From NCBI RefSeq assembly GCF_026151205.1, contig NC_087078.1, positions 3,288,675-3,352,674 on the forward strand: a DNA stretch of 64,000 nucleotides, read 5' to 3'. Under the pieces are notes generated by a model, which worked only from the letters and a program-made list of their open reading frames with translations, searched no databases and was not told the origin of the DNA. This document shows, piece after piece, positions 2,667 through 59,082 of this stretch. The stretch's first letter is position 1. The number at the start of each line of letters is the position of its first letter. The stretch is from Bolinopsis microptera. Its lineage: Eukaryota; Ctenophora; Tentaculata; Lobata; Bolinopsidae. Position numbers and translations under genes: made by a program.

Positions 2667-2766
2667 GGTCACTGGTCCTAGTTTGTTGGTCAACTGCTAT
2701 CTCGAAACCAAGTTTCACAAAAAAAATCAGGGTGAACCCCCCCGGCCCCCCCCCCACCCCCCCCCC

Positions 2767-3076
2767 TTAAGGTGAGGATTGCCTCGATCTTTCGGTTTTA
2801 GCTTAACTCCCTAGGCCCTAGGTCATGAGTAGAACCGAAGGTATATAAGTTGCTTGTTGCTCATATTAACTATAAAACATCAATTTTAATAAGAAGGTTG
2901 ATTTCTCGGTTATTTTTAAGCTTCCGTTCAGAAAATAATTCGGGACTTTCAAAGGGGGGTAACAAGAAGGAGTTACGAGTGGTATGTAAGCGTTCTATAA
3001 TACATAATTTGCATCACATCTTCAACCTGCTGAATAGAGGCGCCACCTAAAACGTAAACCAACAATTATCACCTCC
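2767..3076 (+). repeat. Dispersed repeat R1, copy 1
   Basis: Diverged inverted match to 21844-22301: shared blocks include CTTAACTCCCTAGG, CATGAGTAGAACCGAAGG, TATAGTTAA-type sequence and GAGGCGCCACCTAAAACGTA. It is preceded by a C-rich homopolymer stretch (2735-2766). Confidence 0.75.
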
Positions 3077-3092
3077 CCGGCAGTATCGACAT

Positions 3093-3329
3093 CTATAAAG
3101 CGAGACGATATAAATTTATCTGTGCCATTTTACTGACAGCACGGCATCAACTTTTACGCAAATTTCCGCAAAAACCGTAAAATATATACAACTGAAACCT
3201 TTTTTGACTGGGTCAAATGCTTTAATGGCCTCCAAATCAGCATGAAAAAATAAAAAATTGGCCAAGAAATAGGAGTTTTAGAGACCAAAATTTGGTACCC
3301 CAAGTGGTGTCAAAATACGGGTTCCTGCT
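3093..3329 (+). repeat. Dispersed repeat R2, copy 1
   Basis: Inverted, diverged match to 11948-12255. Shared blocks include CTATAAAGCGAGACGATAT, CCATTTTACTGACA, GGGTCAAATGCTTTAATGGCC, CAAATCAGCATGAAAAAATA and ATACGGGTTCCTGCT. In this copy it follows R1 directly. Confidence 0.75.
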
Positions 3330-3668
3330 ATTTTATAATAAAGATAAGAGATGCTTTTACTAAAAGGTTTCAATTTGCAAAATAATTTAATTGCGGATAT
3401 AAGGATTAAGGGTCACAGGTTTCAGTTCAAGTTTCAGTTTACTGTATTTTTTCAGTTCTTTAGCTTTCACTTATCTCTGATGGATGGTTTTTATTCCTCC
3501 CAACCTTTGAAAGTGTCGCTGAACGTAACGATACAATTACAATTTCGTCACATAAGTTAAATTATTTTTTTGAAATTCATTTCATTTCGATCAAGAATTC
3601 AGATAATCATGATATAAATACTCAAAATCTTAAATCAACCTCGCAATCCTTTTTTTCGTTTAATATAA
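3330..3668. other. AT-rich spacer, nothing recognised
   Basis: Short open frames only, and no domain, splice pattern or repeat match was seen. Confidence 0.5.
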
Positions 3669-3995
3669 TTTGACCAAAACCCATAATCATGGGTAGAGTG
3701 TACCGCTGCCAGTGTCTCTCTTTTCCAAACAAAAGGAAATGATATTAATTTGAGGAACCGTCCGCTAATGCAAATTGATACCGAGAATGAAATCGGTCGC
3801 TCGCTTTTCCCATTCATTCACGGCTTACGAATTGTAATAAAGCTTATTAAATGGGAAAAGCGAGCGACCGATTTCATTCTCGGTATCAATTTGCATTAGC
3901 GGACGGTTCCTCAAATTAATATCATTTCCTTTTGTTTGGAAAAGAGAGACACTGGCAGCGGTACACTCTACCCATGATTATGGGTTTTGGTCAAA
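3669..3995. mobile_element. Palindromic MITE, 146-bp inverted arms
   Basis: The left arm TTTGACCAAAACCCATAATC... (3669-3814) is the inverse complement of 3850-3995, with a 35-bp spacer. The same structure recurs in the tandem copy at 5011-5337. Short open frames in the arms are shadows of the hairpin. Confidence 0.85.
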
Positions 3996-5010
3996 TATCA
4001 TCTCTTTTTGATTATAATGTCAGGATAATTTACACAATCGAAACTTCATTAACAAGGAGGTAATTCCGACGATTTCGAAATTCTGCCTTTGAAAACGTTT
4101 CCTTGTGTTTAGTTAGGTATATCTGTCGATAACCGACTGAATATGGCACTTTTTACTCATTCAAGTTGGCATTAAATTCATATATAATGCCATTTAAATA
4201 TCGTGGAAAGCAGAATATATTCGAAATCACGAATGAGCAAAATTCTCACCTTTCGCACGTGCAAACTTTGAGCGGACGTTGCGTGCGCATACAATATTGA
4301 ATCACCGTAAATTTTTGCATAGTGGTATTTAATATATAGTTTGATAAGCATGCAAAGTTTCAGAAGATTTCAAAAAGAACTTGGATCACAACGGGACTCC
4401 AAAGTTGATAAAAATCGTGAAAATCAAAATTTTTAGTGATTTTAGCTATTTTAAATAAATTTGGGCGTGTCCCCACGTGTGCAACTTTTCGATTTTTAAC
4501 TTTAAAACTAGCCTATAACACAATTTACACCTTTAAGAAGCAAAATTGAGCTCCACAACCCAAGGGATGACCCAACACCAGAGAATACTAATTCACAACT
4601 TTTGTGTTTTTATAAAATTATTCTTCAAAAAAGCACTAACTTCAATAGCAAATATCTTTATGAAGAAGCAAGGTAGGAAACTATTCCGGTAGATTTTCGG
4701 AATGCTTGAACAATTATCTAAGGTGAAAATGTCCTCAGATTTTGAATAAAATTACTCCTTAATAGCGTAAAATCGATTTGAAAAGTTGTTACTTTGTCAA
4801 AAATCAAGTTTTTAAAACACTTAATTTGATGACGTCATCAAGTGATGATGATGACGTTAAATTATTTTCAATACAATGTAAACTAAAGCTTAAACGATTA
4901 TCTTTATAACCTGTGGTTCGAGATGACTGTATCGTTTATACTTTCGAATCTACGGACACTTAAATGTAGGCTACAATTGACTGCAAAAAGCGTCTATATT
5001 ATATAATATA
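3669..5010. repeat. 1,342-bp tandem duplication, unit A
   Basis: Repeated head to tail at 5011-6352 with only scattered single-base differences (for example AAGAAGCAAGG against AAGGAGCAAGG). It begins with a palindromic MITE and ends with CGTCTATATTATATAATATA. No gene is visible. Confidence 0.9.
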
Positions 5011-6352
5011 TTTGACCAAAACCCATAATCATGGGTAGAGTGTACCGCTGCCAGTGTCTCTCTTTTCCAAACAAAAGGAAATGATATTAATTTGAGGAAC
5101 CGTCCGCTAATGCAAATTGATACCGAGAATGAAATCGGTCGCTCGCTTTTCCCATTCATTCACGGCTTACGAATTGTAATAAAGCTTATTAAATGGGAAA
5201 AGCGAGCGACCGATTTCATTCTCGGTATCAATTTGCATTAGCGGACGGTTCCTCAAATTAATATCATTTCCTTTTGTTTGGAAAAGAGAGACACTGGCAG
5301 CGGTACACTCTACCCATGATTATGGGTTTTGGTCAAATATCATCTCTTTTTGATTATAATGTCAGGATAATTTACACAATCGAAACTTCATTAACAAGGA
5401 GGTAATTCCGACGATTTCGAAATTCTGCCTTTGAAAACGTTTCCTTGTGTTTAGTTAGGTATATCTGTCGATAACCGACTGAATATGGCACTTTTTACTC
5501 ATTCAAGTTGGCATTAAATTCATATATAATGCCATTTAAATATCGTGGAAAGCAGAATATATTCGAAATCACGAATGAGCAAAATTCTCACCTTTCGCAC
5601 GTGCAAACTTTGAGCGGACGTTGCGTGCGCATACAATATTGAATCACCGTAAATTTTTGCATAGTGGTATTTAATATATAGTTTGATAAGCATGCAAAGT
5701 TTCAGAAGATTTCAAAAAGAACTTGGATCACAACGGGACTCCAAAGTTGATAAAAATCGTGAAAATCAAAATTTTTAGTGATTTTAGCTATTTTAAATAA
5801 ATTTGGGCGTGTCCCCACGTGTGCAACTTTTCGATTTTTAACTTTAAAACTAGCCTATAACACAATTTACACCTTTAAGAAGCAAAATTGAGCTCCACAA
5901 CCCAAGGGATGACCCAACACCAGAGAATACTAATTCACAACTTTTGTGTTTTTATAAAATTATTCTTCAAAAAAGCACTAACTTCAATAGCAAATATCTT
6001 TATGAAGGAGCAAGGTAGGAAACTATTCCGGTAGATTTTCGGAATGCTTGAACAATTATCTAAGATGAAAATGTCCTCAGATTTTGAATAAAATTACTCC
6101 TTAATAGCGTAAAATCGATTTGAAAAGTTGTTACTTTGTCAAAAATCAAGTTTTTAAAACACTTAATTTGATGACGTCATCAAGTGATGATGATGACGTT
6201 AAATTATTTTTCAATACAATGTAAACTAAAGCTTAAACGATTATCTTTAAAACCTGTGGTTCGAGATGACTGTATCGTTTATACTTTCGAATCTACGGAC
6301 ACTTAAATGTAGGCTACAATTGACTGCAAAAAGCGTCTATATTATATAATAT
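5011..6352. repeat. 1,342-bp tandem duplication, unit B
   Basis: Second copy of 3669-5010, including the MITE (arms 5011-5156 and 5192-5337). At its right end the AT-rich junction extends as an (AT)n run before the next tandem pair. Confidence 0.9.
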
Positions 6353-6782
6353 ATATATATCTTCACGACAATCTGTTGTAAAACAGGGGTTCCAGAAAAC
6401 CCACTTCACGATACTCCTGAAACATGAGATTTTTTTTACAGTCGATTTGGACAAGGTCTAGACGCCCTGCAAAGTTTCAGATCTCTAACTCAATTTTAAC
6501 ATGGTTTTTAAGGCACCTGAATATGGCGATTTTGGGTTTTTTACCTAATTTCGTATAACATGCTGGCGCGTATTTTGCGCAAATTTCTTAAAAACCTCCA
6601 TATAACTATTTCTTATTCCTGTCATCTTTAACATTGAATTAGAATGTTTTGAACTTAAATGTACCTGCTGATCTACTTTCGATGAGTCTTAATGCCTGGA
6701 AATCAATAAAGGGGATATAATAGTATAGGGGGTAAATAGTATTGTGAATATAAGGGCGACGGTAATGCTTGCCAGCATTGTG
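6353..6782. repeat. 430-bp tandem duplication, unit 1
   Basis: CTTCACGACAATCTGTTG at 6361 recurs at 6791, and the whole 430 bp is repeated with almost no change. No coding potential seen. Confidence 0.9.
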
Positions 6783-7212
6783 ATATATATCTTCACGACA
6801 ATCTGTTGTAAAACAGGGGTTCCAGAAAACCCACTTCACGATACTCCTGAAACATGAATTTTTTTTACAGTCGATTTGGACAAGGTCTAGACGCCCTGCA
6901 AAGTTTCAGATCTCTAACTCAATTTTAACATGGTTTTTAAGGCACCTGAATATGGCGATTTTGGGTTTTTTACCTAATTTCGTATAACATGCTGGCGCGT
7001 ATTTTGCGCAAATTTCTTAAAAACCTCCATATAACTATTTCTTATTCCTGTCATCTTTAACATTGAATTAGAATGTTTTGAACTTAAATGTACCTGCTGA
7101 TCTACTTTCGATGAGTCTTAATGCCTGGAAATCAATAAAGGGGATATAATAGTATAGGGGGTAAATAGTATTGTGAATATAAGGGCGACGGTAATGCTTG
7201 CCAGCATTGTGA
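6783..7212. repeat. 430-bp tandem duplication, unit 2
   Basis: Second copy of 6353-6782, ending at TTGCCAGCATTGTGA before unique sequence. Confidence 0.9.
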
Positions 7213-7746
7213 TTATGAACGGTAAAATAAAGCTAATTAGAAAGCCTTCAATCCGTATTGACCAATGCTTCTTAAAATCCATCTAAATGTAAGCTATTTA
7301 AGATGTGCTCTTGGATAGTTGGCGATTAACTAATGATCGAATCTGACGTTAGTTTATTTATAAGTTTTGTTAACATACCTTATACATTGTCATTGTTTTA
7401 TTGTGCGTAACGGTAAATCGTTATTTACTTCTTCTAGCTGCTAACTGTTTTAAATGACGTTCAGCAAGATAATTTAGAATAAATAAATTAAATTTTTTTA
7501 ACTGAACCGCTATTTATTATAGCTCAGGACCAAACCCAGATGGTGTCCTACATCATCAAATCTCAGTTTTCGAACTCATCAAACCTGCAATTGATTCGAA
7601 ACTTAATATTACCTTTAATGCTTACACTCGTCATGTAGTTGTTTCATTAGCATTAGTGCTGTTGTTTTCACTAAGTATGCTAACACAGTAAGATAGTACT
7701 GATATGCTATTTCCTAGATTCCAGCAATTTCTTCTCTTCGTTCACC
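7213..7746. other. Upstream region of the MATE gene
   Basis: Unique AT-rich sequence between the tandem repeats and the start codon. It probably holds the promoter and 5' UTR, but I could not single out a TATA box or splice acceptor with confidence. Confidence 0.4.
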
Positions 7747-9303
7747 ATGACATCTCTCTTCTCCAAAGAATGTGAATTCATCCGCCTGTCCATCTCTTTC
7801 ATATTTATTGATTGCACAGAAATTCTGATGGCGTTCATAACCCTTATGTTCGCAGGACACATTAGTCCGGCTCATCTAGCTGGAGTGGGACTCACTAACA
7901 CCCTTTTTAACCTGATCGTCGTCCCAGTGTCCGCTGGATACGCCTCCGTATTCGACACTTATGGTCCTCAAGTCTACGGTTTTAAGGGTGAGCTTGGGAC
8001 GGTCTTCTTGAAATGTCTTCTCCAGGGCTGGCTCTTGCTGTTTTTAGTTCTAGGACCGTACCTGAATATTGTTTACATCATAGACCTTCTGCCGTACTCC
8101 GGATTGAATTCTTCAATCACAGTGGTTAACGAGATGGCCATTTTGGGCCAGGGCGACTTCCGGGATATCGCGGTGAATTATCTTAGGATCACTTTCATCG
8201 TAGAGTTTCTGGACTACACCTTTACCATGATCTCCAAGTATTTCGCTATTCAGGAGCAGACCAAGTTTGTCTATCTTGTTTCCATTGTGATGATCGTATC
8301 ACATTGTCTTGCTAACTATGTTTTGGTTGTCGTGCTGAAGCTTGGGTTGAATGGACTTGGTGTAGCAGCTATAGTCAGTAGAATACTGCCCCTGACTGTG
8401 TCCTTGACGATCTGCTGTGTCATGATAAAACAAGACCAGTTTGCTTGGAATGGGTTCAGCGCCCGCGCACTTTTAGGCTGGAAGCCCATGATGAAGCTTG
8501 GTATATCAGGTGCTCTGAATGTGTTTGCTGAAATGGTTTTATTCGAGATCTCAACATTCTGCAGCCAGTTTGACGGAGCAGTGGCTTTCTCCGTGGTAAT
8601 TATCGCACACCAGCTGGTATCCATCTGGTGGTCAATAGCTCTGGGGATGTCGGAAGCCGCTGCCACACTCATCGGAACAGCTATGGGTGAGGGAGATGCT
8701 GAGAAAACAAAGCTGTGCATGAAGTTGACAGTGGTGAACTCTGTGTTAGTGTCGAGTGTACTTGCTGTGGTATCGTATTGTTTAATGAGCTACGAGATAA
8801 CGTTATTCTCGTCTGATAACGATGTGAAGAGTGTGTTCATGACCACTTTCTGGATAATCTGCCTCGGTATTCCTGTTGATCATATCCAGACGTCTCTCAA
8901 CCAGGGAATACTTGTCTCGTTTGGGGCACAGAATTTCACCTGTTTTACAATGAGTATTGCCTGCTACGGTATAGGTCTGCCAATTGTTTTAGGCACTATA
9001 TTCTTTACTGACATGAAAGTTGCCGGAGTCTTCATCGGATTGGTCGCAGCAGCTTTGGTAATGCTGGTATGTGCTGTTCTGAAGATACGCACAGTGAATA
9101 TTGAGAATGAGATAGAGAAATCTAGAAAGAGAGTGGGTGTTGATCCTGAAGATGAAGATCCTCTCCTCGGGGAAGATTTTCTCCTTGATCGAAGCGAGGT
9201 TGAAAATAAAAAGGAAATGACTCGTGTTATTTTAGCATTTGTGTACGGTGGTTTAGCTTTTTTTTCACTTGGTGCTTTGTCCATGATTAGAAATTCTAAA
9301 TAA
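7747..9303 (+). CDS. MATE-family multidrug/organic cation transporter (SLC47-like), single exon
   Basis: A 518-residue membrane protein with the pattern of MATE exporters. It would use H+ or Na+ gradients to expel organic cations across the plasma membrane (family knowledge). The first half has hydrophobic helices and the conserved stretch LAGVGLTNTLF...SAGYASVFDTYGPQVYG (residues about 44-78). The second half starts near residue 250 with two glutamates (E262, E267) in the position of the substrate-linked acidic residues of animal MATEs, followed by GMSEAAATLIGTAMGEGDA (300-318), the counterpart of the usual G-V-GNALGAGD motif. An acidic cytoplasmic segment (about 465-490) precedes a final helix (about 495-515), as in vertebrate SLC47 proteins. 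The frame is uninterrupted and ATG follows TTCACC. The coding DNA is less AT-rich than its flanks. It lies between two copies of a 1.33-kb direct repeat, which suggests a recent segmental duplication. Confidence 0.92.
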   Translation: MTSLFSKECEFIRLSISFIFIDCTEILMAFITLMFAGHISPAHLAGVGLTNTLFNLIVVPVSAGYASVFDTYGPQVYGFKGELGTVFLKCLLQGWLLLFLVLGPYLNIVYIIDLLPYSGLNSSITVVNEMAILGQGDFRDIAVNYLRITFIVEFLDYTFTMISKYFAIQEQTKFVYLVSIVMIVSHCLANYVLVVVLKLGLNGLGVAAIVSRILPLTVSLTICCVMIKQDQFAWNGFSARALLGWKPMMKLGISGALNVFAEMVLFEISTFCSQFDGAVAFSVVIIAHQLVSIWWSIALGMSEAAATLIGTAMGEGDAEKTKLCMKLTVVNSVLVSSVLAVVSYCLMSYEITLFSSDNDVKSVFMTTFWIICLGIPVDHIQTSLNQGILVSFGAQNFTCFTMSIACYGIGLPIVLGTIFFTDMKVAGVFIGLVAAALVMLVCAVLKIRTVNIENEIEKSRKRVGVDPEDEDPLLGEDFLLDRSEVENKKEMTRVILAFVYGGLAFFSLGALSMIRNSK

Positions 9304-9361
9304 GCCTCCCCGCTTTTAGCTTTTCAGTCTGGTCCCGGCGACAAGTTACCACATCAAAAAG

Positions 9362-10689
9362 TGTCAGTCTAAAAACTGCTAACTTATAATTCATACTCTC
9401 AGTCTCGTGTTCACGTTATGCTGGTTATCTTACATAATATAATGCATTATTATAAAAAGAGCGTTTGAGCTCGTAAATTACTGAGATTTTTTAATTCTGG
9501 ATGTTTGTATTTAATTTTTAACCGCGACCGTCCATCATCACATGTTCTTTCATTGCTCAAAAAATTAATTCCATTGAACTGAAGTGATTTATTGCAGTTA
9601 CAGCTTTTTATATTTGTCTGTTATAATCCTTTAGTTGTTTCACTTGGTTGATATTTTCCTCCGTGTTACTTGCCCGGCACTTAATTGAACTGCAGCAAAA
9701 TAGTTAAATAATAACTCAAATATTAAGTTTGTTAAATGAATAAATGAAATGAATAATTATTATTAAAATGAATAAATTAAGAATGGACTATTATATCATA
9801 TTCATGGTTAATTGACATTACTTATACTACGCACTTAATTTGGGACATCTCATTGCATGATCTAAAATATCGGGTTGCTGCTGGTCATGGTATCTTTGGA
9901 ATTGAAAGGAAATTAGTTTATGATCGGTGTTACTGCAGTAGTTAGTATAGTATTACTATTAGTATGACTTGTTACTGTTAGTATGACTTGACCATTGTTA
10001 ATGGTCTGGCCCGGCGCGCGCTACTTCGTAGCTCTTGCCATCGGGCCTATAATTATTGTACTATCATATTGATTTCAATGATGAATCAGTGGGGTTAAGA
10101 TAGTCACATTTGTAACAAATAAAACCTGGAAACCGGCCTACCTGGATTACCAGACTTCTTCTTTTCCTCAACAATCAACCTAACCAGGGAAACCAAGGAA
10201 GAGCTAGGAAGTAGGAAGTAGGAAGAGCTAGGAAGTAGGAAGCAAGTGTAAATACACCTTCCAACATCTACTGTGACATGTTTTGTACTGTACTCCATAC
10301 CGATTCATTTGCTATGCGGGATACCTCAAATCACCCCCATATGTCAGGGTCGGCTTAAAATAAAATCAACAAGGGTAACATACGGGCAAGGGTAAAATTC
10401 AGATACGAGCGTCGGGCAAGGGGTAGTAAAGAACCGGTAACAATTAATTCAGTGAAATGTTCCACGAGAGTCAGGATAATTTGGAAATTGCTAATAGAGA
10501 CTGATCCTGATCAGGAAGGTCAAGGATTGTAAATGTTATTGAAGATGTTGATTTGAAATCCGGACGTTGTGAAATAAAAATACAGGTTCTTTCCGCAGGA
10601 TATTCGGGGCCCATGATGATCAGCTCGGGATTAATTTGGGAAAGTTCGAAGAGCATTGAAAAGAGCGAGTTGAAATTTTAAGCTTTCTG
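9362..10689. repeat. 1,328-bp direct repeat, copy 2
   Basis: Second copy of window positions 1-1328, starting just after the MATE gene. To the right it runs into different sequence (GTATTTTTTTGCC) where copy 1 meets the foldback element. Confidence 0.9.
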
Positions 10690-48184: not shown

Positions 48185-51060
48185 GTAGGGCCTGGCCTCC
48201 GAAGTGATTTTAAATTTTCCCAATTTAAAGTTAGTGTTGACCCCCAGTGGGAAAAACGTGGGGCCCCCCACTGCCCTGGGGGGCCCGGGGGGGGGGGGGG
48301 GGGGGGGGGGGGGAAATTGTGGGATTAAATGTGGGACATTTTAATACTAGAAAAACCTATATGTTTTGCCTAGAAAAACACTTTTTTTGTTTTTTTCCCG
48401 GGCTTTATTTTTAAAATCACCTAAATTTGGGAAATTTTCGTTTTATTTTCCCGGGGGAGGGGGGGGGGGGGGGGGGGGGGCCAAAAAAAACCCTTTCCCC
48501 CTGGTTGAGGATTGTTTAAAATTTTACTTAAATTGAAAATTTAAATAGTTTATCCCCTGCTTTGAAAATGCGTCGAAAGCGTTTTCCTTGAAGTCCAAAG
48601 GGTCGTTCCCGGCTTCTTGCTGAACCAGCCGGAAAAATGGGGTTTTAAAGGTTTAAAACCCTACTTTATAAGGATTCTTTTAAAATTAAAAGAGTTGGGC
48701 CCGATAAAGATGGTTGACATGAAACCAGAGAGGAAACGAGGCCCCCCCCAAAATCCTTTGGTGTTTTAAAGTTTTTTGCGAATTTTCCCTGCCATAAACA
48801 CTTAAAATACTATGATCTACCCTAAACCCCAAAAAAAAAGGGGACCCCGTAATATAAAAATTTTAGGGGTTTCCCTAACTAAACAATTTTTCTATTTACT
48901 TTTAAAGGGGTCAAACTATTTTTAAAAAAAAATTTTAAATACAAGTGAAATTTAATAAATGATTTCCCAAAAAATATTCTCCCCTTTTCCTTACCCGGGC
49001 TTTTTAAGAGTTTTTGTCCCTGCTTTCTTGGTGTAAACCCCCACCCCTTTGAAATACTTTTGGTTGTTGTTACATTTCCCAACCTTACCTATTTCAAAAC
49101 TTTTTCATAAGTAACCCTGAAAATTTAAGGGGCCCTTTTTCCTTTTCAAGGGGGGATGCCTAAAATGGGCCTGTGGGGTGCTTTCCCAAAATGGGGCTTG
49201 TACCACGTATTGGAAAAGGGATAAGGGGGAATGTTTTACCCCCCAAACCCCCCAACAATTGAAAGGGGGGGAAGGGGGGGTTAAATTTTTTTTAAAGGGA
49301 AAGGGGGGAAATTGGGCCCAAACCCAAAATTTTAAACCCAAAAACGGGTTAGTACCTCCCAGCCCAAAATTCTGGGGGGGTTTTTATTGACATACTTGGG
49401 GAAACCCCACCAAATTTTTATGTTTTAATAAGGTGTTTAGAAAAAAGGATTGATCCCCATTTGCCTTTGCTTAAAATTAACAGTAGAAGAAATTCCTGAA
49501 AAAAAAGGTTAAATCTAATTCCCTGATCTTTTCCCCTGTATATAAACAATAAATTTAAACAAAAAAAGGACATAATATGTAAAATTTCGAACCCCCTTTT
49601 TTTGGGGTTTTGGTTGGTGGGGGGTTGCCAACAAAGTGGAACGTGTAAGGGGAAACCGGGTGATTTGATTAAAATTTTTTTATAGCAGTTTCTAGACGTT
49701 ACCCTTCAAAAAGGGGCCATTTTTTATAAATTTTAAAATTTAATTTTGATTGTTATTGTTCCCAAGTCTGTAAATGGGGTAAAAGCATAATTAAATTAAA
49801 AATTTTGGAATTTTTATTTAATTTTTTTAAAACCCTTTTCCAAGGGGGGTTAGGGCATTTTAAACCAAAAAAATTTTAATTTGTTTTTTTTAATTTGAAA
49901 TTCTTACCTAGTATTTTTTTTAAAAAGAAGCTGGCCTATAGGTACACGAAAAGTTAAAAAAAGGATTTTTTTGTTTTTTTTGTTGGGACCCTTTAAAAAT
50001 AGGATGCTATGTTTTTTTTGTTTTTAACAAGGAACTTTGTAAAATTTATGAAATTCTAAAGTAAGTGACTTAATGAAATCAAATTTTTACAATAGACTTT
50101 TACCTGGCCCCCAAAACCTTGGGGGCTTTTTTTAAATCAATATTTTTTCCAAAACACTGAATGTGTAGATGTAATTTTAACCCTAATTTTTAAACCAACA
50201 AAAAATTTGGGGGGTGGGTCTATTATTTAAAGGTGTGTCCCCAAACTCTGCAGCGTTGTCCAAAAAGGGCCATTTTTAGATCTAACGTGTTTAAATTTCC
50301 CAAAAAAATTTTTTTAAAGTCCCAAGGCTCCCGGGGCAATAGTAAAGGTTTTTTTAGAATTAGCCTCTGCGGGGAACCCAGTATTATTTCTTGATGCAAT
50401 TATTTTTATCAAAATGTCAATTTACAAAATGTAAAAAAAACCCTAAAATAATTTAAAAACCCAAAAATTTTTCCTTTTTAAAATTTAAATTTTCCCAAAA
50501 ATTTCAAATTACTTGTACTCAAGAAATAAAGTTAAACAATTTACCCAAAAACCCACGGTCACTAGAATTCTCTCAAATGGGAATTTCATTAATCCGCAAA
50601 AAAGTTTTTCCAGAGGTAAACCCTTTAGGGGTCCAGGAGGTTAGTTAATTTTGCTTTAAATTTAACCTTTTAAATTTCCCCAGGGCTTGTGTATAAAGCG
50701 AAATGATTGATATGTTAGATTGATACGATTCTTTAACCCCTTTAAATATAACAACGGTGTATTTTATGTCCCAACACAGGGGGTTTAACATTTTGGGCGG
50801 ATTAAAATTTTCCCAAAGGCAAAACCCCTCCAAAGGTTTGGTGGGGGTTTTATGGAGCAGGGAAAAAAAGGGATAAAAAATTGGGAGTTGGGGAAAGATG
50901 TCGGGGGTAAAGGGGAAAACTGGGGCCCGGGGGGGAATTGGGGGGGTTTTGGGTGGAGACTACAAAGGTTGCAATTGAATTGTCACTAGAAGAATGGTCA
51001 AAGATAATGGTTGGAACTTTAATCACACATCTAGACCAAGGGTGTTTGAGAAAGACAAAA
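48185..51060. other. Low-quality sequence: inflated homopolymers
   Basis: From about 48185 the sequence is full of runs such as GGGGGGG, CCCCC, AAAAAAA and TTTTTTT, including G runs of about 33 (48280-48313) and 20 (48460-48480). Inside it the copia 5' LTR (50640-50790) is recognisable but differs from the 3' LTR mostly by homopolymer changes. Normal sequence with an intact gag frame returns at about 51060. No gene should be read here. Confidence 0.85.
50640..50790 (+). repeat. Copia 5' LTR (damaged consensus)
   Basis: Aligns to 59290-59439 over TTAGTTAATTTTGCTTTA, CCCAGGGCTT, GATACGATTC, ATAACAACGGTGTA and CCAACACA...TTAACA, with homopolymer-type differences. Borders are approximate. Confidence 0.75.
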
Positions 51061-51064
51061 TGAT

Positions 51065-51709
51065 ATGGCCTATGAAAGGTATGTTATTTTTGAAGATATA
51101 AGAAGAAATCAAGATGAAGAAGTCGCAGACTTCATGATTCGTTTTGACCGTGCTATGAAACAAGCTAAAGCTATTGACATTACTTATCCTGATAATTTGC
51201 TTGCTTTCAAATTGATGAGGTCCATGGATCTGAGTGCTGATGAACAGAAAATGATCATGACTGCTTGCACTGATATTAAATATGACTCAATGCAGTCTGT
51301 CATCAAACGTATCTTGGGTGGAAAAACCAGCACATGTGGATCAAATGATATCAAAATTAAGCAGGAGACACAAGAGTCGTTCTATGCCAGACAAGGACAA
51401 AAGAACTACCAAAACTACAGATCAGGGAACAAATTCAGCTCAAATAATAATCAACAGTATTACCCGAACGGTAATCAGCAGCAACATCAGGGCAAGAACA
51501 AGTACATAAATCGAAAGGACAAGTATGGGAACATAATGTTGTGTTTGATATGTGATTCAAAGTATCATTTGGTGCGAGAATGCCCACGCAAAAGTACACC
51601 ATCCTTCTTTACACGCTCAGTCCAAGGAGAGCTGGAAAGTGAACCTAATCTGGAGAGGCAACTTGGTTCCAAACCGGCTACTAGCCGGCACTTAGAAAGT
51701 GGTCACTAG
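51065..51709 (+). CDS. Copia Gag, C-terminal part, truncated by insertion
   Basis: Encodes the structural protein of the virus-like particle. EDIRRNQDEEVADFMIRFDR and PDNLLAFKLMRSMDLSADEQ match the UBN2-type gag region. A zinc knuckle CLICDSKYHLVREC (CX2CX4HX4C) lies near residue 160, and a basic Gln/Asn-rich spacer precedes it. True gag starts further left: about 35 codons from 50955 fit in another frame and are separated by a probable consensus error near 51060. From 51656 onward the reading is the inserted element and ends at 51709. After the duplicated TCTGGAG the natural continuation resumes in frame at 55582. Confidence 0.85.
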   Translation: MAYERYVIFEDIRRNQDEEVADFMIRFDRAMKQAKAIDITYPDNLLAFKLMRSMDLSADEQKMIMTACTDIKYDSMQSVIKRILGGKTSTCGSNDIKIKQETQESFYARQGQKNYQNYRSGNKFSSNNNQQYYPNGNQQQHQGKNKYINRKDKYGNIMLCLICDSKYHLVRECPRKSTPSFFTRSVQGELESEPNLERQLGSKPATSRHLESGH

Positions 51710-53115
51710 CCGGCTACTAACCGGCTACTAACCGGCTAGTAACCACCAAGTGGCTACTAACCGGCTACTAACCGGTCACTAGCCGGCTCTTAATCGGACC
51801 TACTAGTAGCCGGTTCCAAACCGGCTACTAGCCGGCACTTAGAAAGCGGTCACTAGCCGGCTACTAACCGGCTACTAACCGGCTAGTAACCACCAAGTGG
51901 CTACTAACCGGCTACTAACCGGTCACTAGCCGGCTCTTAAGCGGACCTACTAGCCGGCACTCGAAAAGCGGTCGCTAGCCGGCTACTAACCGGCTACTAA
52001 CCGGCTAGTAACCACCAAGTGGCTACTAACCGGTCACTAGCCGGCTCTAAAGCGGACCTTCTAGTTCCAAACCGGCTACTAGCCGACACTTGAAAAGCGG
52101 TCACTAGCCGGCTACTAACCGGCTACTAACCGGCTAGTAACCACCAAGTGGCTACTAACCGGTCACTAGCCGGCTCTAAAGCGGACCTTCTAGTTCCAAA
52201 CCGGCTACTAGCCGACACTTGAAAAGCGGTCACTAGCCGGCTACTAACCGGCTACTAACCGGCTAGTAACCACCAAGTGGCTACTAACCGGTCACTAGCC
52301 GGCTCTAAAGCGGACCTTCTAGTTCCAAACCGGCTACTAGCCGACACTTGAAAAGCGGTCACTAGCCGGCTGGTGGGTACTAGCTGGTTAGTAGACGGCT
52401 ACTAACCGGCTAGTACTAACCTGCTCTAGGCGACTCTAAATCAGACCGGCTATAATTCATTATTGCCAAATAAACAAATTATTTGAAACAAATTATTTGA
52501 AACTTGTTATTTGAAACTTGTTATTTGAAACAAATTATTGAAATGAATTATTTGAAACAAGTTATTTGAAACACGTTATTTGAAAGTAAGTTCCAAAATC
52601 GATTACAACATTTTTATGAAAAATAAAAAAATACTGAAAACTGATTACATTCAATTTCTTCGTGGTGGAGGAGCAGTGTAATTGTTTTTGGGCGCTAGGA
52701 CGACGCCTTGGGTACAAAGGGTCCTAAGAGTGGCAAGATTACGGTTGCAGATCTCGTTTGCGAAGGTGTAAACACTAGGAAGTCTGACGTCTCGTAGTTG
52801 CAGCAGTGCGTGTTGGACACCTGGTAGATCAACTTTTGCTGCTTCAGCGATACATCGCTTTCTTGAGAAGTGACTCCGAGAAATGTGTATCTGCTCCAGA
52901 GCGGCAGACTTTGAGAGACCAGAGTTGACTAGCTGCACAACGGCGTCGTATTCCGCTATAACCCCGTCTAAAGAAAATATCCGCCTCGTTCTGCGACCAG
53001 TAGGCAGAGCAGCAGCATTGGGAGCAGGTTGCTGATCAGTAGCAGGTTGGTGTCCAGGAGCAGCTTGCTGAGCAGGAGGTTGAAGAGAATTGGGAGCAGG
53101 TTGTTGATCAGTACA
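51664..53115 (+). repeat. Left inverted arm of the 3.9-kb element
   Basis: Inverse of about 53823-55330. Outer half: units built from ACCGGCTACTAACCGGCTAG, ACCACCAAGTGGCTAC and GCGGACCTTCTAGTTCC, giving a higher-order period of about 125 bp. Inner half encodes, on the minus strand, a copy of the HTH-like domain (52651-53154). Confidence 0.88.
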
Positions 53116-53154
53116 CCTGCTCCTAAATGCGATCACTGTGGGTCTACCGGTCAC
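52651..53154 (-). CDS. HTH-like domain protein, second copy in the left inverted arm
   Basis: A minus-strand frame whose last ~125 residues equal those of the plus-strand frame ending at 54287 apart from single changes (SRSHFSRKR against SRIHFSRKR; NSLQPP against NSPQPP). It lacks the zinc knuckle and the long PAPQPP array because the arm ends just inside. It may be no more than a by-product of the inverted repeat. Retention of an open frame in both arms suggests recent homogenisation. Confidence 0.55.
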   Translation of the reverse strand: MTGRPTVIAFRSRCTDQQPAPNSLQPPAQQAAPGHQPATDQQPAPNAAALPTGRRTRRIFSLDGVIAEYDAVVQLVNSGLSKSAALEQIHISRSHFSRKRCIAEAAKVDLPGVQHALLQLRDVRLPSVYTFANEICNRNLATLRTLCTQGVVLAPKNNYTAPPPRRN

Positions 53155-53406
53155 ATCTCCTCAATCTGCCCCAGAAGGACTTACAGTCCCGACCTTCCCT
53201 CCCTCAGATGTACTGCCTGCATTCGGACTGTTAGAAGCGCTTACAGAGAGGACCCAGATTATCTACAGATTATAGTACACATCGATCCGTGCTCCCTGCA
53301 CTCTACACCCACAATTCGACCAAACAGACCTATCCCCACCGACTTAGAACCTCTTCTACTTCAAGACCTACCCCACCCCCTCCTCCTCCCACTGTTCCAG
53401 GACTAG
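53029..53406 (+). CDS. Zinc-knuckle frame in the centre of the 3.9-kb element
   Basis: The part from about 53115 encodes CDHCGSTGHISSIC (CX2CX4HX4C), then a second CX2C pair (CTAC) and YREDPDYLQIIVHID. CCHC knuckles bind single-stranded nucleic acid and are usual in Gag-like or accessory proteins of mobile elements. It overlaps, in another frame, the long PAPQPP/HTH frame that starts about 53289, so a frameshift, a splice or a sequence error may link the two into one protein. The first ~28 codons lie in the inverted arm and are doubtful. Confidence 0.6.
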   Translation: MLISSRLVSRSSLLSRRLKRIGSRLLISTPAPKCDHCGSTGHISSICPRRTYSPDLPSLRCTACIRTVRSAYREDPDYLQIIVHIDPCSLHSTPTIRPNRPIPTDLEPLLLQDLPHPLLLPLFQD

Positions 53407-54287
53407 CTCCTCGTACCGCTGCTGCTCCTCAACCGCCTCAACCTCCAGCTCCTCAACCTCCAGCTCCTCAACCTCCAGCTCCTCAACCTCCAGCTCCTCA
53501 ACCTCCAGCTCCTCAACCTCCAGCTCCTCAACCTCCAGCTCCTCAACCTCCAGCTTCTCAACCTCCAGCTCCTCAACCTCCAGCTCCTCAACCTCCAGCT
53601 CCTCAACCTCCAGCTCCTCAACCTCCAGCTCCTCAACCTCCAGCTCCTCAACCTCCAGCTCCTCAACCTCCAGCTCCTCAACCTCCAGCTCCTCAACCTC
53701 CAGCTCCTCAACCTCCAGCTCCTCAACCTCCAGCTCCTCAACCTCCAGCTCCTCAACCTCCAGCTCCTCAACCTCCAGCTCCTCAACCTCCAGCTCCTCA
53801 ACCTGCTCCTGCACAGCAACCTGTTACTGATCAACAACCTGCTCCCAATTCTCCTCAACCTCCTGCTCAGCAAGCTGCTCCTGGACACCAACCTGCTACT
53901 GATCAGCAACCTGCTCCCAATGCTGCTGCTCTGCCTACTGGTCGCAGAACGAGGCGGATATTTTCTTTAGACGGGGTTATAGCGGAATACGACGCCGTTG
54001 TGCAGCTAGTCAACTCTGGTCTCTCAAAGTCTGCCGCTCTGGAGCAGATACACATTTCTCGGATTCACTTCTCAAGAAAGCGATGTATCGCTGAAGCAGC
54101 AAAAGTTGATCTACCAGGTGTCCAACACGCACTGCTGCAACTACGAGACGTCAGACTTCCTAGTGTTTACACCTTCGCAAACGAGATCTGCAACCGTAAT
54201 CTTGCCACTCTTAGGACCCTTTGTACCCAAGGCGTCGTCCTAGCGCCCAAAAACAATTACACTGCTCCTCCACCACGAAGAAATTGA
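53289..54287 (+). CDS. PAPQPP-repeat protein with C-terminal HTH-like domain
   Basis: A frame of 332 codons without an ATG at its left end (GTG at 53289), so the real start is elsewhere, perhaps in the zinc-knuckle frame. Residues about 50-175 are some 20 copies of the hexapeptide PAPQPP, coded by an 18-bp minisatellite. Residues about 210-332 form a compact domain: GRRTRRIFSLDGVIAEYDAV, VQLVNSGLSKSAALEQIHIS, SRKRCIAEAAKVD, ending TAPPPRRN. The pattern (helix, SGLSKSAAL turn, IS-x-x-x-FSRKR recognition-like helix) suggests a DNA-binding helix-turn-helix. I do not recognise the family by name. The antisense frames over the minisatellite (VEELE and RLRSW repeats) are shadows. Confidence 0.65.
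   Translation: MLPALYTHNSTKQTYPHRLRTSSTSRPTPPPPPPTVPGLAPRTAAAPQPPQPPAPQPPAPQPPAPQPPAPQPPAPQPPAPQPPAPQPPASQPPAPQPPAPQPPAPQPPAPQPPAPQPPAPQPPAPQPPAPQPPAPQPPAPQPPAPQPPAPQPPAPQPPAPQPPAPQPPAPQPAPAQQPVTDQQPAPNSPQPPAQQAAPGHQPATDQQPAPNAAALPTGRRTRRIFSLDGVIAEYDAVVQLVNSGLSKSAALEQIHISRIHFSRKRCIAEAAKVDLPGVQHALLQLRDVRLPSVYTFANEICNRNLATLRTLCTQGVVLAPKNNYTAPPPRRN
53434..53805. repeat. 18-bp minisatellite (CCTCCAGCTCCTCAACCT)n
   Basis: About 20 nearly perfect units, with one variant (CCAGCTTCTCAACC) near 53553. Because 18 is a multiple of 3, several frames on both strands stay open. Confidence 0.95.
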
Positions 54288-55330
54288 ATGTAATCAGTTT
54301 TCAGTATTTTTTTATTTTTCATAAAAATGTTGTAATCGATTTTGGAACTTACTTTCAAATAACGTGTTTCAAATAACTTGTTTCAAATAATTCATTTCAA
54401 TAATTTGTTTCAAATAACAAGTTTCAAATAACAAGTTTCAAATAATTTGTTTCAAATAATTTGTTTATTTGGCAATAATGAATTATAGCCGGTCTGATTT
54501 AGAGTCGCCTAGAGCAGGTTAGTACTAGCCGGTTAGTAGCCGTCTACTAACCAGCTAGTACCCACCAGCCGGCTAGTGACCGCTTTTCAAGTGTCGGCTA
54601 GTAGCCGGTTTGGAACTAGAAGGTCCGCTTTAGAGCCGGCTAGTGACCGGTTAGTAGCCACTTGGTGGTTACTAGCCGGTTAGTAGCCGGTTAGTAGCCG
54701 GCTAGTGACCGCTTTTCAAGTGTCGGCTAGTAGCCGGTTTGGAACTAGAAGGTCCGCTTTAGAGCCGGCTAGTGACCGGTTAGTAGCCACTTGGTGGTTA
54801 CTAGCCGGTTAGTAGCCGGTTAGTAGCCGGCTAGCGACCGCTTTTCGAGTGCCGGCTAGTAGGTCCGCTTAAGAGCCGGCTAGTGACCGGTTAGTAGCCG
54901 GTTAGTAGCCACTTGGTGGTTACTAGCCGGTTAGTAGCCGGTTAGTAGCCGGCTAGTGACCGCTTTCTAAGTGCCGGCTAGTAGCCGGTTTGGAACCGGC
55001 TACTAGTAGGTCCGATTAAGAGCCGGCTAGTGACCGGTTAGTAGCCGGTTAGTAGCCACTTGGTGGTTACTAGCCGGTTAGTAGCCGGTTAGTAGCCGGC
55101 TAGTGACCACTTTCTAAGTGCCGGCTAGTAGCCGGTTTGGAACCGGCTACTAGTAGGTCTGCTTTAGAGCTCGGCTAATAGCCGGCTAGTGACCGCTTAG
55201 TAGCCGGTTAGTAGCCACTTTGTGGTCACTAGCCGGCTAGTAGCCGGTTAGTAGCCGGCTAGTGACCACTTTTCAAGTGCCGGTTAGTAGCCGGTTGTTA
55301 ATGTGAAGTTGAGGAGCTGTTATTACAAAA
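53823..55330 (-). repeat. Right inverted arm of the 3.9-kb element
   Basis: Inverse of 51664-53115, with additional CCGGTTAGTAGC units toward its outer end (55170-55360), so the arms differ in length through copy number. Confidence 0.88.
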
Positions 55331-55384
55331 GTGGCTACTAGCCGGTTAGTAGCCGGCTAGTAGCCGGTGTTCATATGGTACTGT

Positions 55385-55550
55385 GCAGGGACGTTGCATA
55401 GACGTTGCATAGACGTTGCATAGACGTTGCATAGACTGACCGTGCAGGGAGTGTGCATAGAGTGTTCATTGTGCAGGGACGTTGCATAGACGTTGCATAG
55501 ACGGTTCTTTTGTTGTTGCACGGACGTTGCATAGACGTTGCATAGACTGT
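55385..55550. repeat. GTTGCATAGAC tandem array
   Basis: Eleven-base units GACGTTGCATA in two clusters separated by CTGACCGTGCAGGGAGTGTG. Present only at the right end of the element, so the two ends are not symmetrical. Confidence 0.9.
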
Positions 55551-55581
55551 CAGGTGGTAAACGACCAACTTCCCTCTGGAG

Positions 55582-58500
55582 AACGTTACAGAGAAGGTGA
55601 AACTTCAATATTTCACCAAAGAGTATTCCTCACCCCAAGCTATTTACCTTGCTGAATCATTTGGTAATGCTATTTTGGATACTGGTTGTACCAAAACAGT
55701 GTGTGGTGAATTATGGTTGAAGGATTTTGTGAAAAAGTCCAAAGTTGTTCTCGAAACCTCTCCTTCTTTGTCTGTGTATAGGTTTGGTGATGGTGACCCT
55801 ATCAGAGCAACAAAACAGGTTCTTCTGCCAATGAATCTTGATGGTGAGTTGTTTGATCTAAAATGTGATGTGGTAAATGATGATATACCTCTTTTAATTA
55901 GTCAAGAGACTATGCAGAATACTGAGACTGTCATTGATATGGTCAACAACCGTGTTAGTATGTTTGGGAAGGACATTCCCACTTCTTTCACCTCTACTGG
56001 GCTAATAATGATTGATATGTTGCCTCACATTGAGATTGATGATACATTTGAAGACCACTTAGAAGAAGCAGCTACCGTTAATGTCTGTCAGTTTGTCGAA
56101 AAGAAATTGGACAAAGCTTCGGTGAAAAAGCTTCATTGTCAGCTGGGACATGGTTCATATGACAAGCTCAGGCGACTACTTAGTGATGCTGGTTTGGGAG
56201 ATGTAGATTTGTTTAGAGTTCTACAAGAGGTCATTGAAACTTGTGAGATCTGTCAAGTTTACAAGAAGGCTCCTGCTAAACCATGCACATCATTTCCAAG
56301 AGCTCGAGGAATAAATGAATCAGTTGCCATTGATCTGCACAAGCTGGATAATAATTTGTACTACCTGCACATCATTGATGAATTCTCTCGGTTTAGTCAG
56401 GCTGGGATTGTCAGGTCCAAGAAGACTAGTGAGATTATTGATGTTCTCAGTCAGAAATGGATATCCGTCTTTGGGTGCCCTTCATTGATATTCTCTGATA
56501 ATGGTGGAGAGTTTTGTTCCAAAGAGTTTGAAGATTGGACACAGAATTTCAACATTGAGCATAAGACTTCTGCTGCCTATAGTCCTTTCTCAAATGGAAT
56601 AGTTGAGCGGCATAATGCTGTAATTTCCTTGATGATGCTGAAACTGGCTGAAGAATTTCCAAATACTAATGTTGATACCATACTCAGCTGGGCGTGTAGT
56701 GCAAAGAACTCACTCAGTACTGTTGCGGGTTTCTCACCCAATCAGCTCATGTTTGGGACACAAACATACCTGCCCAATGTCCTCAACTCAAGTCCACCTG
56801 CTCTTGAGAATGAAACATCAAGTAAAGTAGTCGCTAGTCATATTAATGCAATGAACGCTTCTAGAAGGATGTTTCTAAGCTGTGAAAGCTCCAATAGGAT
56901 AATGAAGGCTTTGAAGAAGCCACTGAGAACTTACACAACACCCATAACCTTTGGAAGTAAAGTTTACTACAAAGCTGTGGGATCAGACAAGTGGAAGGGC
57001 CCTGCAACGGTAATAGGACAAGATAGTACAGTGGTATTTCTTCGTCAAGGAAGCTTTGTAACAAGAGTACATCAGAGCAGGATCTCTCTTGTGAAGGACC
57101 AGGTTCCCTATGAATCTAAATCTGATAGTACAAATGGTCCAATTCAGGATGTTGAGTCTATCAAAGAGGCAAGTGTACTTAGAATACCAGGTCTTGACTG
57201 TTCTAGTGATGATGTTCCAGTCCAAGAAGTTGAAGTAGAGCCTTCTACAAACCCTGTAGCTGAAGTTAATTATCCAGCTGAAATCGAAGCTGAGTCACCT
57301 CCAAGTTTGCCTGAAATTGCTGAGTTAGATAACAACACAGTCAGTACTAAGCAGGATCAAAGAATTGACAAGCCAACTGCCATTAAGAGAGGCTCAACAA
57401 TAATCTTTGTTGATGATGGGACACAGTATGAGGCTGTTGTATTGTCAAGAGGAGGGAGGGCTAATGGTAAACATAAGAACTGGTACAATGTTCATGTTAA
57501 AGAGACAGATGAAGTCATATCTATAGATGTATCTACCATTGATGACTTCACTGTACTGAACAAAGATGAAGGTGATGATTTTGATTTCGACCCAATTGAA
57601 GATGTCTATGCTGTTCAATTGGATGACTATGCAACTGAAAAGCAGTTAGAACTGAGTTCGTGGGTAACTAACAAGGTGTATGAAGAAGTTCAGATAGAAG
57701 AGCTAGATGCTAGAAAAATTATCACAAGTACTTGGGTATGTAAACAGAATGGCGATACCAAAAAGGCTAGACTAGTTGCTCGGGGATTTCTTGAGGATAC
57801 ATCGTCCATCCTAAGTGATTCCCCTACTTGTTGCAAAGAGAGTCTTCGTTTGCTTCTTGCCATCATTGCCGGAAAGAATTGGATTGTACAAGCATTAGAC
57901 ATTAAGTCTGCTTTCTTGCAAGGGAACGACATGATGAGACCTGTGTACATGAAACCTCCTAAAGAAGCAAAAGTTGCCTCAGAGGTAATATGGAAGTTAA
58001 AAAAGTGTGTCTATGGGCTAGTGGACGCCAGTCTTAAGTGGTATCAGCGAGTTGCTGATTGTTTAATTGATCTTGATGGTGTGAAATCGAAAGACCCTGC
58101 TGTGTTTTACTGGAGAAAGGATGGAGACCTTGAAGGGGTTCTTGCCTTGCATGTCGACGATTTCATGTTTGCTGGATCAGCGAAGTTTCTTGAAGAAGTA
58201 ATGACAAAAGTAAAATCTGAATTCCTCATAAAGATTGAAGAAAAATCTGCTTTCACTTACCTTGGGCTAGAAATTCGTCAAAAGGCTGACTATATTGAGA
58301 TGGATCAGAAGAAGTATATTGAAAAGCTTTGTCCCATTGATATACCAGGTGGCGCCCTTAAAACCAGGGACCTCTCTAGTGATGAGAAGAATACTCTTAA
58401 GTCTAAGCTGGGCCAGATCCTTTGGGTATCCAACCACTCTAGGCCTGATGTGTCTTTTCAGGTTTGTGTCACCAGCACAGGTATCAAAGATGCCACTGTG

Positions 58501-59082
58501 AAGGACTTTCATGACTGTAATCAGGTCATAGAAAGGCTAAAGAGAAAGCATGTCTGTATCAAACATCACTCACTTGGGAATCTGAAAAATCTGAAGTTTA
58601 TCCTCTTTAGTGATGCCTCACACAAAAACCTCTACAATGGAGCTTCACAGGGTGGATATGTAGTGTTCATTAAGTCGGATGATAGCCAGTTTGCCACTCC
58701 TTTGATATGGTGCTCAAAGAAGTTAAAGCGAATTGTAAGAAGCACCTTGTTTGCAGAAACCTATGCACTCCTTGAAGCAATTGACTCCTGCATCTTCCTT
58801 CGCAGAATGAAATCACAGCTACTCAACATTGAGGATATTAAAATTGAATGTTATGTTGATAGTCAAACTTTGTGTGATTCCATTGTTAGTAATTATAAAC
58901 TGAATGAGGATAAGAGACTTAGGCATGAAATAGAATGTTTAAAAGAAACTGTTAAATTAGATAATATTGATGTTCATTGGATATCTAATAAACTGCAAGT
59001 TGCAAACGTATTCACCAAAGCTGGGGCACCGACAAATTTAATACTTGAAGTTTTGGATACTGGAGTTTTAAGATTTCAATAA
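55582..59082 (+). CDS. Copia Pol polyprotein (protease, integrase, reverse transcriptase, RNase H)
   Basis: An uninterrupted frame of about 1,166 codons following the duplicated TCTGGAG. Order: aspartic protease ILDTGC near residue 31, GAG-pre-integrase zinc-binding LHCQLGH...CEIC (about 185-230), integrase core with VAIDLH, FSDNGGEF and SNGIVERH (D, D, E, about 250-350), RVT_2 with KKARLVARGF, ALDIKSAFLQG and the catalytic LHVDDF, then RNase H with FSDASHK, FAETYALLEA and YVDSQ. This is copia order (IN before RT). All catalytic boxes are present, so the product looks competent except that its link to Gag is broken by the 3.9-kb insert. No ATG marks the beginning because it is the continuation of the Gag-Pol frame. 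Confidence 0.95.
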   Translation, partial: NVTEKVKLQYFTKEYSSPQAIYLAESFGNAILDTGCTKTVCGELWLKDFVKKSKVVLETSPSLSVYRFGDGDPIRATKQVLLPMNLDGELFDLKCDVVNDDIPLLISQETMQNTETVIDMVNNRVSMFGKDIPTSFTSTGLIMIDMLPHIEIDDTFEDHLEEAATVNVCQFVEKKLDKASVKKLHCQLGHGSYDKLRRLLSDAGLGDVDLFRVLQEVIETCEICQVYKKAPAKPCTSFPRARGINESVAIDLHKLDNNLYYLHIIDEFSRFSQAGIVRSKKTSEIIDVLSQKWISVFGCPSLIFSDNGGEFCSKEFEDWTQNFNIEHKTSAAYSPFSNGIVERHNAVISLMMLKLAEEFPNTNVDTILSWACSAKNSLSTVAGFSPNQLMFGTQTYLPNVLNSSPPALENETSSKVVASHINAMNASRRMFLSCESSNRIMKALKKPLRTYTTPITFGSKVYYKAVGSDKWKGPATVIGQDSTVVFLRQGSFVTRVHQSRISLVKDQVPYESKSDSTNGPIQDVESIKEASVLRIPGLDCSSDDVPVQEVEVEPSTNPVAEVNYPAEIEAESPPSLPEIAELDNNTVSTKQDQRIDKPTAIKRGSTIIFVDDGTQYEAVVLSRGGRANGKHKNWYNVHVKETDEVISIDVSTIDDFTVLNKDEGDDFDFDPIEDVYAVQLDDYATEKQLELSSWVTNKVYEEVQIEELDARKIITSTWVCKQNGDTKKARLVARGFLEDTSSILSDSPTCCKESLRLLLAIIAGKNWIVQALDIKSAFLQGNDMMRPVYMKPPKEAKVASEVIWKLKKCVYGLVDASLKWYQRVADCLIDLDGVKSKDPAVFYWRKDGDLEGVLALHVDDFMFAGSAKFLEEVMTKVKSEFLIKIEEKSAFTYLGLEIRQKADYIEMDQKKYIEKLCPIDIPGGALKTRDLSSDEKNTLKSKLGQILWVSNHSRPDVSFQVCVTSTGIKDATVKDFHDCNQVIERLKRKHVCIKHHSLGNLKNLKFILFSDASHKNLYNGASQGGYVVFIKSDDSQFATPLIWCSKKLKRIVRSTLFAETYALLEAIDSCIFLRRMKSQLLNIEDIKIECYVDSQTLCDSIVSNYKLNEDKRLRHEIECLKETVKLDNIDVHWISNKLQVANVFTKAGAPTNLILEVLDTGVLRFQ

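Follow-up and report, generated by a model that had tools for sequence, protein, structure and literature searches.

The window analysed here is a stretch of 64,000 nucleotides from the ctenophore Bolinopsis microptera (assembly GCF_026151205.1, contig NC_087078.1, positions 3,288,675 to 3,352,674 of the forward strand). At its positions 51657-55574 lies an element of 3,918 bp with long inverted arms, inserted in the gag-pol region of a copia element. This insertion is probably a non-autonomous foldback member of the Merlin (IS1595-related) transposons, and its lineage is probably two-component, combining a transposase with an accessory gene for a putative arm-binding protein. All the evidence comes from one genome; stretches fetched from it are designated L followed by a number.

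Results

Sister copies carry a Merlin transposase between the same arms

In the window element no transposase was found, whether among its open reading frames, by Pfam or in the feature map. Longer copies of the family do hold one. L022 (element 683-6098, target site duplication (TSD) TAATCCAG) has an open frame flanked by its arms that is recognised as DDE_Tnp_IS1595 (PF12762; E=4.5e-14). One genome search for the transposase gave 58 matches. In another, at seven places (L013, L016, L017, L022, L029, L030 and L031) identity was at least 96% over the matched part, the six places other than L022 lying at 96-98%, and family arm and end sequence adjoins each of the seven in the feature map. The copy of L031, whose end is cut off in the fetched stretch, was completed from neighbouring stretches: located on C4, it measures 4,851 bp, has its own TSD and carries a transposase frame of 250 amino acids (aa), whose D-D-E triad has a spacing of 36 residues between its last two members. 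Because sister copies carry the transposase between the same arms, we regard the window copy as a non-autonomous foldback Merlin; it was assigned through shared ends and arms, not through a transposase of its own.

The initial annotation, made from the window alone, had reported no recognised transposase, which is true of the window copy and untrue of its family. It had hesitated between a new foldback-like family and a non-autonomous derivative. The first idea must be given up, the transposase belonging to the described superfamily Merlin/IS1595, and the second is borne out by borders and TSDs common to several copies and by the companion transposase that it proposed to seek in longer copies, found as PF12762 in L022. 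Our own first candidate, suggested by the arms and TSD, was a P (Galileo) or Mutator foldback origin; it was dropped on the PF12762 match in L022. What lies between the arms is this domain, not a Mutator or P transposase, although no whole-genome search for the latter two was made.

Fuller copies (L016, L022), with 8-bp TSDs, are built as subterminal block, arm, Merlin DDE transposase (partial), accessory gene, arm and subterminal block, the two genes being in tandem on one strand. Relative to this order, the window copy has its transposase half replaced by an inverted copy of the other half, made of the helix-turn-helix (HTH) part of the accessory gene, spacer and arm. The HTH part also occurs in opposite orientations on the two sides in L014 and L015.

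Borders of the family

Searching the genome with window positions 53823-54287 returned at least 81 matching pieces, and with the subterminal block at least 41 matches (the best 40 of 315 first-look candidates were scored). Sixteen copies are two-ended: 15 with both ends in one stretch, the window included, and L009, whose left end is in L032. The remaining fetched copies show a single end only, or ends outside the motif used. In all 16, one GGCAACTTGG end is paired with one GGGAAGTTGG end. These family ends, like the ends GGTAACTCGG of L044 and L045 (see below), have the 5'-GG terminus of Merlin elements. An exact 8-bp TSD flanks 14 of the 16 (TGAAAGAG in L009), the TSD of L023 has one mismatch, and L020 has none. 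Borders and target duplications are thus shared among copies, which is what the initial annotation had proposed to look for.

L020 (3247-8522), with two ends and no duplication, may be a chimera formed from two insertions. L034-L037, at 1.1-2.1 kb, are miniature copies composed mostly of arms and ends. In L013 (1225-4609), three consecutive arm-plus-end blocks have the same orientation, each end being followed by the same flank, as if a half-element and its flank had been triplicated. Two parts of the 720-base transposase query, 309-720 at L017 7693-8104 and 152-307 at L018 2297-2452, are found some 6.6 kb apart on C2 (at about 414.2 and 421.2 kb) in the same orientation, as if one copy had been split by other sequence. 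L033 has a 308-aa frame inside a foldback copy (1857-2780), which resembles a protein of the ORF1 type of long interspersed nuclear elements.

Structure of the window element

The target duplication had been recognised before and given as 7 bp (TCTGGAG). It is in fact 8 bp, TCTGGAGA, so the element starts at 51657. Its parts are the following (strand in brackets where it applies):

51649-51656: left TSD TCTGGAGA, an exact 8-bp match to 55575-55582
51657-55574: non-autonomous foldback Merlin element (probable), 3,918 bp, with ends common to other copies
51657-51666 (+): left end GGCAACTTGG, fused to the arm; the subterminal block of about 260 bp is absent on this side
51674-52452: left arm, CCGGCTA array, 11-bp period
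52458-52650 (-): AT-rich spacer with 14-bp repeats, inverted copy
52651-52998 (-): second, inverted copy of the 3' (HTH) part of the accessory gene, 100% identical by blastn to the 53940-54287 query
53112-53402 (+): 5' remnant of the accessory gene with CCHC knuckle and CX2C..CX2H module, 96% identical to the L009 gene
53436-53804 (+): PAPQPP linker array, 15-bp unit in 24.6 copies
53940-54287 (+): accessory HTH (CCDC106-like) domain
54288-54480 (+): AT-rich spacer with 14-bp repeats
54486-55296: right arm, CCGGCTA array, 11-bp period
55297-55574 (+): subterminal block with GACGTTGCATA array (11-bp period) and right end CCAACTTCCC
55575-55582: right TSD TCTGGAGA
51050-51656 (+): host copia gag frame, interrupted by the insert (weak gag match, E=0.015, below the cut-off)
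55583-59082 (+): host copia pol frame (integrase, RVT_2), 3' of the insert

Most of what had been read from the letters agrees with this map. By arithmetic alone, gag and pol come into phase when 3,926 bp, made up of the insert and a single duplication, are removed. The arms of CCGGCTA units are 100% complementary, over 51665-52242/54567-55144 (578 nt) and 52076-53113/53825-54862 (1,038 nt). They are long inverted repeats of short tandem sub-repeats, as in foldback elements. The left subterminal block was lost, since the arm follows directly on the GGCAACTTGG end. The CX2CX4HX4C knuckle is a zf-CCHC match (E=2.3e-4), the PAPQPP array is present, and the SGLSKSAAL..FSRKR domain, which is the C-terminal domain of a single protein, occurs twice, once per arm, with the knuckle fragment in the centre.

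A single accessory gene

The initial annotation had credited the element with two separate proteins, one with a zinc knuckle and one HTH-like. This is ruled out by L009, where knuckle, linker and HTH form one continuous frame of 401 aa; the window holds pieces of this gene, its start codon lost at the inversion joint and its reading frame shifted between knuckle and linker. The likely start in L009 is the Met of MRTRRNRY, a position at which the sister accessories also have Met. In order, the protein has the knuckle, a second C2..CH module, a proline-rich linker and the HTH. The second module reads CX2C-X23-CX2H in the L009, L042, L044 and L046 accessories, with a spacing of 26 in L049, and aligning the HTH over seven rows leaves seven invariant columns.

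The nearest Pfam family is CCDC106 (PF15794), with scores below its cut-off of 30.2: 24.1 bits for L048 (E=3.7e-5), 22.4 bits for L049 (E=1.2e-4) and 16.8 bits for the inverted HTH copy of the window. The L042, L044 and L046 accessories gave no PF15794 match, and sequence searches of the PDB nothing significant (best E 0.65 and 0.87).

A divergent copy of the gene (about 80%) lies in L025 (C7:2036500-2046499) at 882-9395, its proline-rich linker expanded to an array of several kb, with frames of 731 and 2,080 aa and a damaged knuckle (one knuckle residue lost). Between the window HTH and L025, nonsynonymous divergence (dN) is 0.091 and synonymous divergence (dS) 0.435. L009 has in addition, inside its two-ended copy, a segment of about 3.7 kb (814-4483) that matches neither the window element nor the family transposase; the one frame tested there, 3138-3536, had no Pfam match.

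The accessory gene accompanies Merlin transposases in sister subfamilies

We had considered that the accessory gene might be confined to the foldback family. A genome search with the L009 protein ruled this out, giving at least 114 matches (the best 103 of 758 candidates were scored). To count pairs, the 60 of 114 matches with identity of at most 60% were retained, forming 51 places, and compared with 75 transposase places. Of these divergent accessory places, 18 lie within 5 kb of a transposase, versus a mean of 0.17 and a maximum of 3 in 2,000 random draws. With the L049 accessory as query, 98 matches were obtained, of which 97 were used (one on C207 was omitted), against 93 transposase matches (90 plus 3 from the set of 58); 13 of the resulting 72 places have a transposase match within 5 kb, versus a random mean of 0.22 and a maximum of 3.

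In all, the accessory gene was found beside Merlin transposases in six subfamilies, with transposase identity down to about 35%. Transposase and HTH distances among the six are correlated (Mantel r=0.84; of 720 permutations, 2 reached this value, counting the observed order). The sister-subfamily transposases match PF12762 with E=1.2e-18 to 5.8e-13.

Pairs were read directly in L042-L046, L048 and L049. L042 and L043 have 318-aa transposase frames and accessory frames of 340 and 356 aa, with TSDs GCTTACTG and GGGTTTTG and ends GGCAACTTGTACG; L044 and L045 have a 337-aa transposase and accessory frames of 280 and 290 aa, with TSDs AAAACATG and ATAGTATA. In these four, the arms measure about 340-650 bp and enclose the two genes in head-to-head orientation, and all TSDs are 8 bp. 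The frames of L046 (260-aa transposase, 295-aa accessory) are also head to head. In L048, a 320-aa transposase is followed downstream on the same strand by a 257-aa frame with the HTH and without the knuckle, and in L049 a 295-aa transposase is tail to tail with a 292-aa accessory whose knuckle-like motif is CX2CX3HX4C. A TSD scan of L046-L048 found none. For the pair L042 and L044, synonymous change is saturated or nearly so, and dN is 0.50 in the knuckle part, 0.57 in the HTH and 0.28 in the transposase.

Arms with an 11-bp phase

By autocorrelation, lag 11 was the best in 12 of 14 repeat regions; the 12 comprise the window arms, the window subterminal block, L042, L044, L047, L046 and L025. 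Values were 0.45-0.78, each above the shuffled maximum of its own region. The exceptions were the AT spacer (lag 14) and L048 (lag 15). No period of 11 was seen in the 39 tandem-repeat rows elsewhere in the window. The arm units themselves differ (ACTAACCGGCT, GACGTTGCATA, ACATTAAGACA, GCACACCTCGG, ACCGGTTAAGA), CCGGTTA being common to the window and L047 units. A fixed spacing near one helical turn combined with a changing word has the appearance of protein sites presented on one face of the DNA. That 11-bp arms are universal was an idea we dropped, as repeats in the two distant subfamilies of L048 and L049 are of 14-15 bp.

Discussion

Points against a two-component Merlin

A number of observations weigh against the two-component reading. 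Some concern the genes of the foldback family: the sampled transposases are without most of the N-terminal zinc-ribbon part seen in sister Merlins (that of L031 aligns from about residue 80 only, and L013 has two short pieces), and for this reason no whole autonomous copy of the subfamily was found. Among the copies fetched, none has both genes whole, and the whole accessory frame of L009 sits in a copy without a match to the family transposase. Others concern the pairing. The 18 paired places include three on C6 that seem to be near-identical copies and hence are not independent, and no transposase match lies within 5 kb at 33 of the 51 and 59 of the 72 accessory places. L047, a 328-aa Merlin with 11-bp arms, has no recognisable accessory frame and no accessory match within 580 kb, so it is possible that the accessory is not required or is provided in trans. 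In L050, which has a transposase frame, likeness to L048 stops before the accessory HTH, counter to the pairing pattern. As to phasing, the L049 accessory has a knuckle although the short terminal arrays of that element have periods of 14 and about 28. Lastly, the knuckle part shows no purifying selection between L009 and L025 (dN 0.089, dS 0.072), although the knuckle of L025 is a damaged one, and a single-sequence model of the HTH was too poor for use, with a mean predicted local distance difference test score of 45.8.

Other explanations

The arms resemble in architecture those of Mutator and P foldbacks, and an 8-bp TSD occurs in further superfamilies. Tetris, according to the excerpted text of PMC4079207, has TSDs of 8-10 bp. 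One could imagine a foldback of Mutator or P type that has no relation to Merlin and in which Merlin genes are nested by chance. This is very improbable, as several insertions, each with a TSD of its own (L022, L029 and the C4 copy), have the transposase enclosed by the same arms and the same design recurs in other Merlin subfamilies. Alternatively, the accessory gene might be a passenger captured once by an ancestral Merlin, without a role in transposition (a regulator, for example), the arms being minisatellite-like expansions. The arms of L047 in the absence of a recognisable accessory frame, the many accessory copies apart from any transposase match, and a gene orientation that varies among subfamilies from tandem to head to head and tail to tail would all suit a passenger. 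However, over transposase identities of some 35-65% the gene was retained and diverged congruently, protein change from L042 to L044 is constrained where synonymous change is saturated, and the 11-bp phase is common to arms of different unit sequence; we therefore consider a passenger unlikely.

It is also possible that the accessory protein is needed and acts on the transposase, in nuclear import or assembly, and that the arm arrays bind the transposase itself. Analogies exist in the sections of the cited papers at hand: the Myb-like protein of Harbinger co-imports its transposase (PMC9179366), and the terminal inverted repeats (TIRs) of Galileo contain secondary transposase sites in their repeats (PMC3573991). 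Yet the Harbinger protein is described in the same excerpt as binding TIRs as well (PMC9179366), and the HTH domain is the accessory part alignable across two deep groups, so that an action on the transposase alone seems somewhat doubtful.

Proposed mechanism

Under the two-component reading, the accessory protein, probably DNA-binding, would bind the helically phased 11-bp arm arrays via its HTH domain and recruit or co-import the transposase via its zinc modules or proline-rich linker. It would so bring the two ends together, and the transposase would then cut and insert the element by cut-and-paste. Judged from sequence, the predicted binding of arm units by the accessory protein is better supported than before by the subfamily pairing and the 11-bp arms of the closer subfamilies. 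Template switching from one arm to the other, in the course of repair following excision, is the likely origin of the long arms and of palindromic derivatives such as the window copy. A broader proposal, tentative and rather unlikely as a whole, is that of an old two-gene Merlin branch, in which the knuckle/HTH protein reads phased arm arrays, with a word proper to each closer subfamily and the same 11-bp spacing, and from which the CCDC106 family of animals descends.

Relation to known transposons

Foldback-type elements available for comparison are Foldback and Tetris, with which Tm1 is reportedly grouped, and Galileo. In the excerpts of the papers cited here, most foldbacks seem to be Mutator elements, with exceptions (PMC4079207), and Galileo belongs to P (PMC3573991). 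Like Foldback and Tetris, our family has a foldback structure and non-autonomous copies; those two are assigned to Mutator (PMC4079207), and our family is Merlin. With Galileo it shares long, internally repetitive TIRs, whose tandem repeats hold secondary binding sites in Galileo and which lengthen there by recruiting internal sequence. Galileo differs in its P-type transposase, its 7-bp TSD (8 bp here) and its F-group repeats of about 210 bp, and no accessory gene is described in the portion of PMC3573991 available.

Merlin elements are described as having GG ends, TSDs of 8-9 bp and TIRs of 24-462 bp, with matches in three ctenophores and many other groups (PMC8101967, in part). The present lineage agrees in its IS1595-type DDE transposase, terminal GG, 8-bp TSD and internal tandem repeats. 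It departs in its arms, which are about 1.1 kb, array-built and foldback-like, and in its accessory gene, none being described for Merlin in that part of the source. One protist family does have an extra 1-kb frame on the strand opposite the transposase, regarded as an ORF that arose by chance, and a C-terminal zinc finger in some copies (PMC8101967).

Among two-component transposons, Harbinger works in the way proposed here: its second, Myb-like protein is of a DNA-binding type and its phylogeny tracks that of the DDE transposase (PMC9179366, in part). Our lineage likewise has a linked, conserved accessory gene with an HTH-like domain, its requirement being putative. The two differ in that the transposases are unrelated and that knuckle, C2CH module, proline-rich linker and CCDC106-like HTH stand in place of Myb/SANT. 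Kolobok is likewise a superfamily whose lineages bear differing accessory genes, there nucleases, a helicase and KolX (excerpts of PMC9587614).

In the literature searched (subscription papers and Repbase lay outside it), no Merlin foldback, no Merlin accessory gene and no report joining Merlin, zinc knuckle and transposon was found, and no title on CCDC106 and transposons was on point. The element belongs to a superfamily already known, and its accessory gene and phased arms are an unusual design without report in that literature. If true, a Merlin foldback with a co-inherited accessory would mean that the foldback design arose from one more source, and would join Harbinger as a further case of convergence on a two-component DNA transposon. 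Phased arrays that keep an 11-bp spacing while their unit changes allow coevolution of protein and site to be tested directly in a single genome, and the weak resemblance to CCDC106 points to a source of an animal gene family that can likewise be put to the test.

Other features of the window

Scanning the window for tRNAs and for Rfam families (at the gathering threshold) gave no match. Long direct repeats are present at 1-1328 versus 9362-10689 (100%) and 3661-5011 versus 5004-6354 (99.6%); they could be long terminal repeats, the product of a recent duplication or an effect of the assembly.

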